DNA from: Microcaldota archaeon | Lineage (GTDB): Archaea > Micrarchaeota > Micrarchaeia > Micrarchaeales > Micrarchaeaceae | DNA: 45,685 nt | Assembly: GCA_021822165.1 (NCBI GenBank) | Contig: JAKARM010000002.1 | Coordinates: 36,050-81,734 of the forward strand | Direction of reading: 5' to 3' | In this document: one piece after another, positions 1-8,963 of the stretch | Layout: every line of letters begins with the position of its first letter | How positions within the stretch are numbered: the stretch's first letter is position 1 | Notes under the pieces: model-generated | Databases searched by the model: none | Seen by the model: only the letters and a program-made list of their open reading frames with translations | What the model was told of the DNA's origin: nothing | Made by a program: the position numbers and the translations under genes

Positions 1-279
1 CGGAAAATATTAGTTATGGGGACTTCTACGTGGAAATCCCAGAGGGATCGATATGCGGATAGCCGGTCCCGGCACTATGCAATAACCGGCTTTGCGCGGC
101 AGGACAATGAGGGTGTGGTGCTTACAAAATGCTTAGCAGAAAGCCCAAAGCCTCAAAAGGATTTCCTTAGAATTATAGGTGCTTTCCGATGTCCTTCCAC
201 TTAAAGACGATAGTATAAAGCCGGAAAAAGACGGCAAATCCGGCCAAGGGCGTTAAGCTCCCAACCCTGTGACCCAAGC

Positions 280-1509
280 TCAAATCCCGGTGAACTCGTC
301 GAGGAGCACGGTGGCGTAGGAGCCGGAAGGGAGGGAGAAGGAAAGTTTCATGTCGGCTCCCTCGGAGGAATGGCTAAAATCGAGATAGGGGGAGAATAAT
401 GCCCTGAACGCACCCTTGCAATTGAGCTCGGGCATGCCGTCTATCTTGAACGACTCGGGAGTTATACCCATGCCGTCCATCAGCCCCTTCTCCGCCGCGG
501 TCAGATTTGCAGTACCATACCCGACTATGTTGCCGACCGGAAAGAGGCCTTCTTCCCTCTCGCCGCCATTGAAGGCCCTCACGGTGGCCATGTCCGGGAA
601 ACCGTAGCGGTCGGCCGCGCAGACGAGGTCGCCCTCTTGCGGCCCTGCGCCGGATTTTATCCGTTCCTCCAGCGACCTGTTGAATATATGGCTCTCCACG
701 GAATGGACGTACATCAGCGTGACAGATCGCGGAATCTTCCTTATCGCATTCGCATAGTCGTTCGGGAAGACCGAGAGATGGTTTAGGACCAGCCTCTCGT
801 TTTTCAAGTATCTCGGAAAATATTGCAGGGCTCCCTTGAAATCCCTCTCCGAAGCCAGCCTCTCGCGGGCGGCCACCGCATCCTGGTTTGTCTCGGAAGA
901 GGAATCCGACAGGATCCTCATAGCCGCACTCTCGAAGTCGCCTTTGATGATGTCAAGCCCGACCTGGATGTTGTTCCCCCGAGTACCGAACCTCTGCGTC
1001 CCGTAATAATTAGGGAATATGCCGGAAAGCTCGCTATGCACCTCTTCCACGGCGCGCGGATCCGCCACGCCCTTGAGCGTTATAGTGAACCTGTTGCCCA
1101 GAAGATCGCCGAGCCTCACGCCATGGGAACCCTTCCATGCGCCGTTTATGGTGATGTCTTTTAGCCTGACCCCGAGTAGCTGTGCCGGCTCGACCCCGTA
1201 CATGCTGCACAGCTGGGTGGATATGGCAGTCCTGTCTTTGGAACCGGCGAACCCTGCAGACCTTATCCCCCGCGCCACCTTCCTTGAAATCTCCTTTAAT
1301 GCCGAAGAGGTATTCCAGTCCCTCTTCTGCAATACGAATATCGAGAACTTCCCCCCCTCCGCCTTCGCATCGGAGAGGCCGGGCTCGCTGCCGGAATATA
1401 CGCGGTCCCTCTCCAGCACCACCCCACCCGGGGTTATCTCCTCCACCACGAAGTCTTCCGCGGACGATTTGACTTTGCCGCCAGAACCCGGGCTTTTCGC
1501 GAGCCTCAT
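280..1509 (-). CDS. truD: tRNA pseudouridine synthase D (TruD family)
   Basis: 409-aa ORF with TruD signatures (FAGSKDRTA, YYGTQRFG, LGNRFTITL). Confidence 0.95.
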   Translation of the reverse strand: MRLAKSPGSGGKVKSSAEDFVVEEITPGGVVLERDRVYSGSEPGLSDAKAEGGKFSIFVLQKRDWNTSSALKEISRKVARGIRSAGFAGSKDRTAISTQLCSMYGVEPAQLLGVRLKDITINGAWKGSHGVRLGDLLGNRFTITLKGVADPRAVEEVHSELSGIFPNYYGTQRFGTRGNNIQVGLDIIKGDFESAAMRILSDSSSETNQDAVAARERLASERDFKGALQYFPRYLKNERLVLNHLSVFPNDYANAIRKIPRSVTLMYVHSVESHIFNRSLEERIKSGAGPQEGDLVCAADRYGFPDMATVRAFNGGEREEGLFPVGNIVGYGTANLTAAEKGLMDGMGITPESFKIDGMPELNCKGAFRALFSPYLDFSHSSEGADMKLSFSLPSGSYATVLLDEFTGI

Positions 1510-4016: not shown

Positions 4017-4034
4017 AGGAGAAGAAGCTTGCTC
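4017..4034 (+). repeat. 5' arm of 23S rRNA processing stem
   Basis: AGGAGAAGAAGCTTGCTC is a perfect 18-nt reverse complement of 6876-6893. Confidence 0.85.
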
Positions 4035-4035
4035 G

Positions 4036-6874
4036 AATTTACCCCACCTAGGGGATGACTAGGCTATAGCAGCGAAGAAGGCCGTGGCAAGCTGCGATAA
4101 GCCCGGGGTAGTCGCAAGTCGGACGTTGATCCCGGGATTGCCGAATAACATCCTTAACAGGATGAGCATACGCGGGGAATTGAAATATCTTAGTACCCGC
4201 AGGAAAAGAAAGAGAATTCGATGCGGTGAGTAATACGAATGAAAGCCGCAGAGGGCAAACCGAATCCTGCTGTGCAAATGGCGTGGAGATGTGGTGCAGC
4301 GATATCTATCCATATCATGAGCTGAACGCTTTGGAAAGAGCGGCTATAGAGAGTGACAGCCTCGTAAGCGAAGTGCCGTGGAGGTAGCTGCAAAGAGTAG
4401 CGTTGCATGGTTATGCAACACGAAGGCGGGGGCATTAAACCCCAACCCTAAATATTGGCTATAGACCGATAGAGAACAAGTAGCGTGAGCGAAAGTTGAA
4501 AAGAACGCACACCTGTGCGGTTCAAAAGATCTGAAACTAGGTGGTTACATGCAGGTAGGGCATGAAAGGAATGAAGGAGGCAGAAGCGAAATCCGAGAGG
4601 AAACAGCGATGCCTTTGGAACAGTGTCCTATCTTTCTTCTTGAAGCAAGAGCCAGGGAGTGTATAGGAGTGGCAAGTCGAAAGACGAAGCGAAAGCGAGA
4701 GCGCGCAGCCTTCGGGCAAGGCGCAAGGTATGAAAATGCCTAAGTCACTTTTATACGACCCGAAGCCATTGTGATCTATCCGTGACCAGGATGAAGCTAG
4801 GTTAACGCCTGGTGGAGGTCCGCCTCCTGTCATGGCATGTCCTGTTGGGTGAGTTACGGATAGCGGCGATATACCACTCGAACATGGCAATAGCGGGTCC
4901 CTTCTGAAGTATCTTTAGGATAGCTCTGGGCGAGTTTGCATATGCGGTAGAGCGACCGATCGACAGGAACGGGGTCGGAAGGCCTTACCTGTCTGTCAAA
5001 CTCCGAATGCATATGCTGCGTAGACCCCAGGAGTCGGCGAGGTTGGGTAAGCCAGCCCCGCGAGACTACAAAGATAGTGACTATGGTTAAGGTCCCCAAA
5101 TCCTAGTTGAGTGTTTCAAAGGCGATGGACATCGTAGACAGCTGGGAGGTAGGCTCAGAAGCAGCCATCCTTTAAAAAACGCGTAATAGCGTACCAGTAG
5201 AGATGTCTGTTGCTGAAGATATACGGGGCTAAACTAGGTACCGACACCATAGCGTTCGAAAGAACGGGTAAGAAGGCGTACGGCATGGCTGGAAGTGCGT
5301 TCGAAAGTTCGCATGGACCGTGCCGTAGTGAAAATCCTGGTATTAGTAACAGCATTTATAGGTGAGAATCCTATACACCTTAAGCACACGGTTTCCTTCG
5401 CAACGCTCGTCAGCGGAGGGTTAGGCGATCCTAAGCCGCAGGCTAATCACCACAGGCGGCAAAAGGGAAGCTGGTTAATATTCCAGCCCCTGACATGTAG
5501 GCGTGGCAACACAAGGCAGATTTCTGACATTTGGGGATAGGCCTTCAGAAAGTGCAAAGGGCTGCGGAGTCTCGTTATGAGGAGAAGCAGCTAAATGAAC
5601 TATGGCTGAATTCCTGAGTCCGTGAAAAGGGAATCTGCAACGATCATGTCAGACCGTACCTAGAACTAGTACAAGTGTTGCTGGCTTAAAAAGCCGAGGT
5701 GTGTCGGAATAACCCTGGTTAGGGAAATCGGCAAACTAGTGGTGTAAGTTATCGAGAAACCATGTCTGCGCATAGTATGCGCAGATATCATTTTCTAGGG
5801 GGCAACGACTGTTTATCAAAAACACAACTCACTGCAAAGCGGAAACGCCTAGAATAGTGGGTGACGCCTGCTCACCGCCAATACGTGAAGGCCCTTTTCA
5901 AGGGGAGTAAGCGCTGGCAAAGAGCGGGAGTAACTCTGACTCTCTTGAGGTAGCGTAATACCTCGTCACTTAATAGGTGACTTGCATGAAGGGCGTAACG
6001 ATTGCCCCGCTGTCCCAACCAGGGATCCGGTGAACTTACTGCGTGGTGAATATGCCACGATCTCTCAGTGGGAAATGAAGTCTCCATGAAGCTTGACTAC
6101 ATCCTGTAGTTGCTGCGATAAGTATTATGCATAGTGTAAGTGGGAGCGTCGATGCCTGCGTTTCGGCGCAGGCGGAGCGACAATGTAACACCACTCTTAA
6201 TTCTTATCTCGGCTTACCAGAAATGGGACAGCTGCAGGTGGGTAGTTAGACTGGACGGTTATTTTCGATAAAGAAACGAAAATGACCAAAGCTCTGCTTA
6301 ACTGGCTTGGGAAACCAGTGAAAAGCACAAAGGCAAATGCAGGGCTGACTGTATGCCGAAAAGCGTGGCATGCAGGCTCGAAAGAGGGGCTTAACGAACG
6401 TTGGTAGCTCTTTTAATGGGGCTCCAAGCTGTCAGACAAGTTACTCTGGAGGTAACCGATTCGTCGCCGGTGAGAGTTCACATCGACCTGGCGGTTTGAT
6501 ACATCGATATGGGCTTAGGTTATCCTGGTGGTGCACAAGCCACCAAGGGTTGGGCTGCTCGCCCATTAAAAACCTACATGAGCTGAGTTCAGTACGCCGC
6601 GAGGCAGTACGGTAATATCTACTGAGAGTGTTAGTGCCAGAGGATAAGACCCACTTAATACGAGAGGAACGGTGGATCGGCGCCTCTAGTGTACCGGTTG
6701 TGATTGCACTGCCGGGTAGCCACGCGCTATGTGGATAAGTCCTGAAAGCATCTAAGGACGAAGCCATACCCGAAACGAGGCATTAGGGCGGTTGTAATAG
6801 ACAACTTTGATAGGACGGGTGCGTAAGCAGAAAGCGTAAGCGATCTGTGAACATTCCGTTACTAAAGCCTAATA
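4036..6874 (+). rRNA. rrl: 23S (large subunit) ribosomal RNA, stand-alone and divergent
   Basis: Recognisable LSU segments: GAACAAGTAGCGTGAGCGAAAG; H69-like GGGAGTAACTCTGACTCTC; GGTTATCCTGGTGG; GGGCTGCTCGCCCATTAAA (A-loop); ATACGAGAGGAACGG (sarcin-ricin loop). Ends approximate, bounded by the processing stem. Confidence 0.93.
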
Positions 6875-6875
6875 T

Positions 6876-6893
6876 GAGCAAGCTTCTTCTCCT
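6876..6893 (+). repeat. 3' arm of 23S rRNA processing stem
   Basis: GAGCAAGCTTCTTCTCCT is a perfect reverse complement of 4017-4034. Confidence 0.85.
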
Positions 6894-7110: not shown

Positions 7111-8271
7111 TCACTTGTCCCCGAAGAAACCGAGGATCCTCGCAGTGAGCTCCCGGGACTTGTCCGGATTGTATTTCAAGGTGAAACTGGATCCAGCAGG
7201 GCGCCATATCGCCGAAATGCCGGATGAAAAATGGCCGAACCCTGCAGGAGTCCCCTCCAGCTTCGTATCGTGATGGAGGGGCGAGGGCTCGATAAGGGGG
7301 TTGTAATGCACGCGGTATCCGGTGCGGCCCGTGCTTAACTCCCTGTACATCGTGATCTTGGAATGCTGGAGCGCGCCCAATGGGGAAACTTTCCCGCCTG
7401 TGGACACCGTGGCATTTTTAAAATAGACGTTCCCGACGTCTGGAAGGCGGGGTATCATGGTGGAATTATTGAATAGAGGGGTCTCTTCTATGAAATCCCC
7501 TGTCAGCATGGAGGAGTTATAGAAAACGACAGCGGATTTCTTAACCCCGTTGGTGAGGTCAGATACCGTTATCTTCCAGCGGTCGGCGCCGCCCTTGACA
7601 AGATGGATGTTGACATTGATCTTGTCTCCCGGACGGGGTGAAACCTGCATCAGCTGGGGAACCCCTGGAAGCAGCTGGTACCAGGCGGCATAGGCAAAAT
7701 GGCCGTCATTCCCGCATTCCAACACGCCAGCCTGTATGAGCGTAGTGTCGGAAGATGCCTCTTTTGCCAATCCCCCAGGATGTAAACCGGACGGGTTCAT
7801 GTATCCCCCTATGCCGACCCACTCAGATACTGCAAGAAGCGCTCCGGAAGGGCGGCCCCCATAACTCACCGCAGGCACGGTAAAGGTAGCGTTTACTCCC
7901 GTTACATCGCCTTTCGGGTGCGCAGCATATCCTGCCCAGAAAGAGGATAATGTATTCCCCCCATTGGTGAAAAACAGGCGCATGCCGTTGCGTCGGGCAT
8001 ACTGCTCGCCGGGATGTATAGCGTTTGATTTCACCTCGGCAATTGCCTTCCGGGATACCACCACGATAGGGTGCGGGGTCTCCGGCATGTTTGTCGAAAG
8101 GGCATTGTACAGGGATATGGTCCCGGCAGCTATGCCCAGGCCGGCAAAGATGGCTGCGGCCAATTTTTTGCCCCTCTCCGGACTGGAAGTGGCATCGTCG
8201 CGGAGGAGGGAGGACATCATCTTCTCGTCATGGCCCTGGCGGCGCGGGCCATTCGAGGATTTAAACACCAT
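7111..8271 (-). CDS. G1 family (eqolisin) glutamic peptidase-like protein, membrane-anchored or exported
   Basis: N-terminal hydrophobic helix; eqolisin pattern SSFWAGYAA, GDVTGVNATFTVPAV, SEWVGIGGY, TTLIQAGV (catalytic Gln), FAYAAWYQLLPG, PGDKINV, GDFIEETP (catalytic Glu). Confidence 0.85.
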   Translation of the reverse strand: MVFKSSNGPRRQGHDEKMMSSLLRDDATSSPERGKKLAAAIFAGLGIAAGTISLYNALSTNMPETPHPIVVVSRKAIAEVKSNAIHPGEQYARRNGMRLFFTNGGNTLSSFWAGYAAHPKGDVTGVNATFTVPAVSYGGRPSGALLAVSEWVGIGGYMNPSGLHPGGLAKEASSDTTLIQAGVLECGNDGHFAYAAWYQLLPGVPQLMQVSPRPGDKINVNIHLVKGGADRWKITVSDLTNGVKKSAVVFYNSSMLTGDFIEETPLFNNSTMIPRLPDVGNVYFKNATVSTGGKVSPLGALQHSKITMYRELSTGRTGYRVHYNPLIEPSPLHHDTKLEGTPAGFGHFSSGISAIWRPAGSSFTLKYNPDKSRELTARILGFFGDK

Positions 8272-8409
8272 AGCACTCAGTATATGTTGGCGCTTTTATG
8301 ATATTTAATGATTAGTTGCGGGCTTTCGTCGCCCTGTTCTTTTGCCTTTTGGGAGGAAACCCATTTGTACAAAAGATTTAAATAAGTTTCTAGGCAACCT
8401 ATAACTGTT

Positions 8410-8568
8410 CAAGGGAAGCGTAGTTTAATGGTAAGTGATGCAGATGGAATATGGCTGGCATGTAAGATGTTCTTATTTTACCATGTCCAGCCTTGGCAAT
8501 ATTAAGCTGCCAACAGTAGCGGCCATAGCATCAAAGGACCATTTGGCTGCATAAAATCATCATTTTTT
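8410..8568 (+). ncRNA. Candidate structured leader or small RNA
   Basis: TATA-like TTTAAATA (8377-8384); D-arm-like TAGTTTAATGGTAAG; long hairpin 8453-8492; hairpin 8493-8513; T6 run 8563-8568; no good ORF. Confidence 0.35.
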
Positions 8569-8579
8569 AGGTGGTTGGT

Positions 8580-8963
8580 ATGCGCCAAATGGTTATAACG
8601 AGAGTATGCTCTAAGACTAAGCTCAGCCAGAGGGAGGAGCTCATTGTGCTGGAGATAGGGAAGGATAAAATAGACACAGCGACAGCCTTCGTCGATTACA
8701 TAGGGGGAGAATATGGGGTGTCGAAGAGCTCGGTCTGGTACCACCTCAACAAGCTGAAGGAGGCAGGCCTTCTCACTTTTGCCACGAAAGAGGAGAAGGG
8801 GCTGAAAGCCCTGTCATTGACCAGGGAGGGGAGATTGCTTCTCAGGGAGATGGAACTGGGGATGAGGATGGCGGCAAGCCAGAACCCGGCAAATGCGCAA
8901 TGGCATACGGCACCGCCATACAATAGGTTGTTGAGGGGCTATCAGATGGCGGATCACGCTTAA
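8580..8963 (+). CDS. Winged-helix DNA-binding protein
   Basis: wHTH pattern YGVSKSSVWYHLNKLKEAGLLTF...LSLTREGRLLLREME; GTG at 8571 or ATG at 8580. Confidence 0.8.
   Translation: MRQMVITRVCSKTKLSQREELIVLEIGKDKIDTATAFVDYIGGEYGVSKSSVWYHLNKLKEAGLLTFATKEEKGLKALSLTREGRLLLREMELGMRMAASQNPANAQWHTAPPYNRLLRGYQMADHA

Follow-up and report, generated by a model that had tools for sequence, protein, structure and literature searches.

The P loop and the sarcin–ricin loop with its GTPase contact are textbook cases of ribosome parts that cannot be changed. In the canonical ribosome, C75 and C74 of the P-site tRNA are held by pairing with P-loop bases G2251 and G2252, respectively (E. coli numbering throughout); mutations at 2251–2253 are reported to be dominant lethal in E. 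coli (PMC4665369). An in vitro survey of the E. coli active site found G2251, G2252, C2063, A2450 and C2501 to be the least mutable bases, while A2062, A2448, C2496, G2505, G2253 and C2254 tolerate change, A2062U retaining 94% activity (PMC7049736). On the factor side, Asp20 of EF-G coordinates Mg2+ beside the O2′ of G2655 in the sarcin–ricin loop (PMC4176186), and the aspartate of the G1 motif has been described as universally conserved and as crucial to the GTP hydrolysis that the ribosome stimulates (PMC5311926).

The 23S gene described here lies in a stretch of 45,685 nucleotides, which we refer to as the window, from the genome of a member of one Candidatus Micrarchaeota order (Micrarchaeum, ARM-1, Mia14). 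The gene and its flanks are as follows:

4026..6884, + strand: 23S (large subunit) rRNA gene, full length and without intron, a complete match to RF02540 LSU_rRNA_archaea (model 1-2987, 2263.3 bits; cut-off 50 bits)
4018..4034, + strand: 5′ arm of the 23S processing stem, GGAGAAGAAGCTTGCTC, a perfect 17-nt reverse complement of 6876-6892
6876..6892, + strand: 3′ arm of the 23S processing stem, GAGCAAGCTTCTTCTCC, pairing with 4018-4034; the flanks fold onto each other

The perfect 17-bp inverted repeat around the gene is that expected of an archaeal processing stem. A covariance-model search of the window's own genome (G000; a 784-kb, 37-contig assembly that is 89% complete) returned a single RF02540 match, at 4026-6884, and the 16S gene of the same genome lies on a separate contig. 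That 16S gene (G000:C14:1172-3178) and those of several relatives run to about 2,000 bases against a 1,478-position model and hence contain inserts. Many relatives' 23S genes are in pieces, with breaks at recurrent sites (model 1422, 1783 and 2143); the window's is unbroken. Adjoining the 23S gene is a peptidase A4 family protein of the acid protease type (7111-8271, − strand), and at 8412-8446 there is a tRNA-like 5′ half (GGGAAGCGTAGTTTAATGGTAAG...) with neither an ARAGORN call nor an Rfam match at E up to 1; Rfam searches of window positions 1-300 and 8380-8640 gave no match.

Relatives were sampled from the same order (families f1 and f2) and from the rest of the class. We compared 28 full-length 23S genes of the order (the window's and 27 others) with 29 from elsewhere in the class (L062-L091 except L070, with the window left out), with E. 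coli and with the Rfam archaeal consensus, using a covariance-model and MAFFT alignment against E. coli rrlB. (L070, a 23S at G273:C77 of a Micrarchaeota bin, is bacterial-like and probably contamination; a second 23S of that bin lies on C63.) In a 23S tree built without the trait columns, the window and the 27 other order members form one clade (SH-aLRT 100) with a long stem branch (0.2). The order's members are host-dependent archaea with small genomes (0.6-1.2 Mb). In the comparison with relatives that the earlier note proposed, the changes described below recur in the 27 other full-length genes of the order, including those of the single-contig cultured genomes ARM-1, A_DKE and, probably, Mia14 (G009, 952,257 bp).

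The strongest anomaly of this 23S is a deletion in the P loop:

6249..6261, + strand: helix 80 with the P loop, stem GACU/GGUU, with GGAC (6253-6256) instead of GGGGC, one base fewer

The canonical GGGGC (G2250-C2254), a feature of functional archaeal 23S, is thus absent in the window. The earlier note had placed an alteration correctly at 6250-6258 (ACTGGACGG) and read it as substitution; it is a one-base deletion plus a G/A difference. All 28 full-length order genes carry the deletion, versus none of the 29 from the rest of the class. A broader scan by pattern extended this to 122 genomes with a readable P loop: the loop is shortened in 79 of 79 order members and GGGG in 43 of 43 other class members, with no exception. 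Matches to the pattern across all species genomes include ARM-1 (AP024486, 814,439 bp) and A_DKE of Micrarchaeum (NZ_CP060530, 989,838 bp); this genome-wide scan used strict flanks, and other lineages with the deletion may have escaped it. Two of the seven bacterial matches to the pattern (L103 and L110) are without 23S similarity and are chance matches. The shortened forms are mostly GGAC in f1 and GGGC in f2, and they are accompanied by A or G at U2245 and by loss of the archaeal bulged A after 2257. One bin, G010, has two 23S genes (on C33 and C35), one with a GGAC and one with a GGGC P loop, reflecting either mixed strains or two copies. Simple folding of the region in the window gives a GGAC tetraloop on the GACU/GGUU stem.

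Further differences lie in the PTC strands, the A loop, helix 69 and the sarcin–ricin loop:

5931..5940, + strand: helix 69 loop, TAACTCTGAC; A1916C at 5936, class-wide; A1912, A1913 and A1919 kept
6075..6086, + strand: PTC strand 2056-2067; A2062U (6081), C2064U (6083) and G2067A (6086); G2061 and C2063 kept
6445..6464, + strand: PTC strand 2441-2460; G2446A, A2448G, A2453C, G2455A and C2456U; A2450, A2451 and C2452 kept
6498..6514, + strand: PTC strand 2494-2510, GATACATCGATATGGGC; G2495A, C2496U, C2499A, G2505A (6509) and C2507G (6511); C2501, G2502, A2503, U2504 and U2506 kept
6552..6566, + strand: A loop; U2554C; U2552 and G2553 kept
6580..6614, + strand: PTC strand ~2576-2611; G2582A (6586, partner of 2507) and U2586C; G2583, U2584, U2585 and A2602 kept; a base missing after U2609 (6613)
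6655..6671, + strand: sarcin–ricin loop, E. coli 2652-2668; G2655A at 6658; C2658 to A2665 unchanged; A2666 the archaeal norm

Some of these letters are ordinary for archaea: C2666A, A1918G and A2058G (Rfam consensus, with haloarchaeal references for 2666 and 1918). Others are class-wide, namely A1916C (28 of 28 order genes and all other class members), A2448G, C2496U, C2499A, U2586C and the missing base beside U2609. Specific to the order, or nearly so, are the P-loop deletion, G2505A (28/28 versus 5/29 in the rest of the class), C2507G (27/28 versus 0/29), G2495A, A2453C, A2062U (23/28 versus none) and G2655A; G2446A is found in all 28 full-length order genes. At position 2655 those 28 genes have A in 21 cases, G in six and U in one, further order members mostly have A, and G2655A does not occur in the rest of the class. 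The bulged G2655, a feature of functional archaeal 23S, is accordingly absent in the window, the remainder of the sarcin–ricin loop being intact. All 28 order genes, the window's among them, retain G2061, A2451, U2506, G2553, G2583, U2585 and A2602; C2063, A2450, C2501, U2584, G2255 and C2275 are also kept. Two observations concern the class more broadly: all of its members have one base fewer than E. coli between U2609 and 2611, at the PTC/tunnel entrance, and position 2503, a highly conserved PTC base (A2503), is C in all 29 sampled class members outside the order and A in the order.

The five strings quoted in the earlier note, the fifth being AATACGAGAGGAAC, are all present in the window, its by-eye E. 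coli numbering mostly agrees with the alignment, and its statement that A2451, U2506, U2585 and A2602 are kept is confirmed. Its view of the PTC strands (including GGTAACCGATTCGTC, at 6451-6465) and of helix 69 as altered at near-invariant sites holds for the letters and less so for their rarity: A2448G is class-wide, several PTC differences are compensated pairs, A1916C is common to the whole class and G at 1918 is the archaeal norm. In the sarcin–ricin loop, G2655A is real, the quoted string begins one position earlier than given (6657-6670), and C2666A is normal in archaea. It had overlooked A2062U (6081), C2507G (6511), G2582A (6586) and the class-wide one-base deletion after 6613.

The earlier note had also pointed to EF-2 and the uL proteins as places where compensation might be found. 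The EF-2 residue that docks on the sarcin–ricin loop is indeed altered order-wide; uL16 is little changed and was rejected as the compensating protein, having order-specific residues in only two columns (Asn for Ser and Ser for Asp) and a P-site loop that is not rebuilt. EF-2 was recovered from 60 order genomes and 13 other class genomes. In 57 of the 60, the window's own included, and in none of the 13, the G1 motif AHVDHGK reads AHVHHGK, and in the same 57 switch-I RGITI reads R[RK]MTI (rarely R-R-L or R-R-I), so that both the invariant G1 Asp (EF-G Asp22, EF-Tu Asp21) and RGITI are absent. The 13 other EF-2 proteins all have the Asp, and 12 of them RGITI; the solved archaeal EF-2 chains 6q2d and 5h7j have Asp and Gly at the altered sites. 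In other respects the order's EF-2 is conventional: it is full length, scores over the TIGR00490 curated cut-off and keeps the switch-II DTPGH and the diphthamide-region HRG. The proteins from G040, G058 and G184 (L193, L210 and L219), which form one EF-2 clade near the order's base, have canonical HVDHGK and RGITI, by ancestral retention or reversal.

The other translational GTPases keep the canonical motifs: EF-1A has GHVDHGK and RG[ILV]TI in 15 of 16 order genomes, and aIF5B has GHVDHGK in 12 of 12, so it is the translocase alone that is systematically rewired. Neither is a partner for the 2655 change, both being canonical save in G049, whose EF-1A (L250) has the G1 motif GHIAHGK, with Ala for the near-universal Asp. 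Against any model centered on the factor site stands the fact that these canonical EF-1A and aIF5B proteins must use the same sarcin–ricin loop.

From these sequences we infer a functional, rewired ribosome with a matching change in EF-2, by a mechanism along the following lines. EF-2 would have swapped its Mg2+-binding G1 aspartate for histidine and its switch-I glycine for Arg or Lys, and the sarcin–ricin loop would then probably be held by basic EF-2 side chains, with no Asp-Mg2+ bridge. This change may have relaxed the constraint on G2655, which was then free to drift, reaching A in most members and U in a single one; EF-2 probably changed before position 2655 became free. Such a link is permissive and not strict, because His occurs with G2655 and Asp with A2655. 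The genomes with EF-2 His have G2655 in nine cases, A in 44 and U in one, and in the Asp clade two genomes have G2655 and one (G184) A2655; these nine genomes and G184 contradict strict co-variation, and the association of the two states (Fisher P = 0.09) carries no phylogenetic power. The single U2655 among the full-length genes belongs to the 23S of the window's nearest relative, G015 (L026), a pyrimidine there being reported lethal in E. coli.

The pattern of base pairing bears on whether the gene works. Of the base pairs in domains IV-VI, 89 depart from the archaeal consensus, and standard pairing persists in 81 of them. For changes on both sides, 72 of 77 are compensatory, compared with about 34 by chance (P ~5e-20, chance rate 4/9); this count rests on a model-made alignment, which is biased to pairing, and the effect size is large. 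The compensated pairs reach into the active site, where C2064-G2446 has become U-A, G2067-C2443 A-U and C2456-G2495 U-A. G2455/C2496 is A/U in the window and G/U, an intermediate, in much of the class, and the 2507-2582 pair has gone from C-G to G-A, G-C or G-U. The window's changes also fall mostly at positions that were tolerant in the E. coli survey (PMC7049736), and the least mutable ones are kept if the lost P-loop base is taken to be G2250 (see below). Paired helices, kept tRNA-end contacts and changes at tolerant sites together exclude a decaying copy. We think it probable that this is the one, working 23S gene of a member of the Micrarchaeum order, with a rewritten PTC and factor-docking site and with most contacts to the reacting tRNA ends unchanged.

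How the changes arose is another matter. Drift could account for them: in a small symbiont, mildly deleterious changes would have been fixed through small populations and patched by compensation, without adaptive meaning. We put this at even odds: the small genomes (0.6-1.2 Mb) of these host-dependent archaea, the order's long stem branch (0.2) and the concentration of changes at positions tolerant in E. coli all fit, whereas a single shortened form of the P loop is kept in all 79 members read. That the form is unchanged across 77-86% 23S identity points to strong current selection. Drift, being a question of origin, can be compatible with a functional ribosome.

Within the reading of a functional, lineage-specific ribosome, there are two ways to place the deletion. 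We prefer the register in which the base equivalent to G2250 is lost, because a CCA-adding enzyme is present and because of the E. coli mutational data. The archaeal enzyme was found in 15 of 16 order genomes, and the window's tRNA-Asn gene does not encode a CCA end, so that normal CCA ends are expected and altered tRNA 3′ ends were rejected as the partner of the P loop. In the preferred register the loop would become GG(A/G)C, with G2251, G2252 and A2253 probably at 6253, 6254 and 6255; G2251 and G2252 would both be retained, and with them the pairs to tRNA C75 and C74 in the P site, and the shortened loop would be closed by a 3-4-bp stem instead of the GGG triloop being closed by G2250-C2254. 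If the lost base were instead G2253 (or G2252), the CCA would be held by one normal G-C pair, with an A opposite C74 in f1, and the P-site contact would be altered. The sequence fits this equally well, and a two-base loop could still be closed by G2250-C2254. We nevertheless consider it unlikely: in E. coli G2252 gives dominant lethal mutants (PMC4665369) and ranks with the least mutable positions (PMC7049736), the CCA-adding enzyme is canonical, and a two-base loop on one G-C pair would be strained.

The two remaining explanations scarcely survive. The earlier note had left the choice between an extreme but functional ribosome and a degenerate second copy. The former is upheld by the gene's being the only 23S found in its genome, by its recurrence in relatives and by the double changes; a degenerate or unexpressed second copy is suggested by the unusual letters and nothing more, and is refuted by the copy count that the note had proposed (one 23S in the window's own 89% complete genome and one apiece in the single-contig relatives with a match, with no canonical copy elsewhere), as well as by the compensatory pairing, the processing stem and conservation across the order. 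A sequencing or assembly error at the G run, for which a few scattered bacterial 23S genes with GGGG to GGG in one copy offer a precedent (the single copies L101, L105, L096, L106 and L116, probably homopolymer errors), is just as hard to credit and is excluded by the independent records (ARM-1, A_DKE, Mia14) that share the deletion: the form recurs in 79 genomes from many projects, several of them cultured and complete, the GGAC of f1 is not a shortened G run, and the deletion is accompanied by neighboring changes, U2245R and the missing bulged A after 2257.

Taken at its fullest, the functional reading would mean that a whole order has a P loop of another geometry, with the P-site tRNA positioned unlike that of all characterised ribosomes, and an EF-2 that hydrolyzes GTP without the "universal" Asp, basic residues replacing the Asp-Mg2+ bridge. 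This we hold tentatively, as somewhat short of an even chance. If true, nature would here contradict two rules of translation that are taken to be absolute, and the order-wide P-loop deletion with its EF-2 partner change would reveal which contacts are truly required. The order would offer a natural experiment for the evolution of the PTC and factors in host-dependent archaea, as well as parts for ribosome engineering. The changes also bear on antibiotic binding, since A2062, G2505 and C2507 are located in the drug site, and on rRNA probes and conservation lists that presume these letters. We found no prior description of this variant in the open-access literature.

Compared with archaeal 23S in general (RF02540), the window's gene shares the full-length fold, the conserved catalytic bases and the archaeal letters at 2058 and 2666, and differs in its shortened P loop, G2505A and C2507G, the order mostly having A2062U and G2655A as well. 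Other families of the class share A1916C, A2448G, C2496U, C2499A and the missing base beside U2609, and G2505A in 5 of 29 cases, whereas theirs are the canonical GGGGC, G2655, A2062 and C2507, together with C2503 where the order has A2503. Natural variation in an archaeal PTC has a parallel in the A-loop variants U2554C/U2555C of Thermoproteota (PMC9976906), and U2554C occurs in 20 of 28 order members; those variants are substitutions at tolerant sites, in contrast to the P-loop length change and altered EF-2 of the order. Mutants of E. coli (PMC7049736, PMC4665369, PMC4176186) agree with the order in tolerating A2062U and changes at 2505 and in needing a purine at 2655, but in E. coli changes at G2251, G2252 and G2253 are reported to be dominant lethal and a pyrimidine at 2655 lethal, whereas the order has a shortened loop and one relative has U2655. 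Finally, the order's EF-2 resembles other archaeal EF-2 (TIGR00490; 6q2d, 5h7j) in its full length, its switch-II DTPGH and its diphthamide-region HRG, and differs in having HVHHGK for HVDHGK and R[RK]MTI for RGITI.
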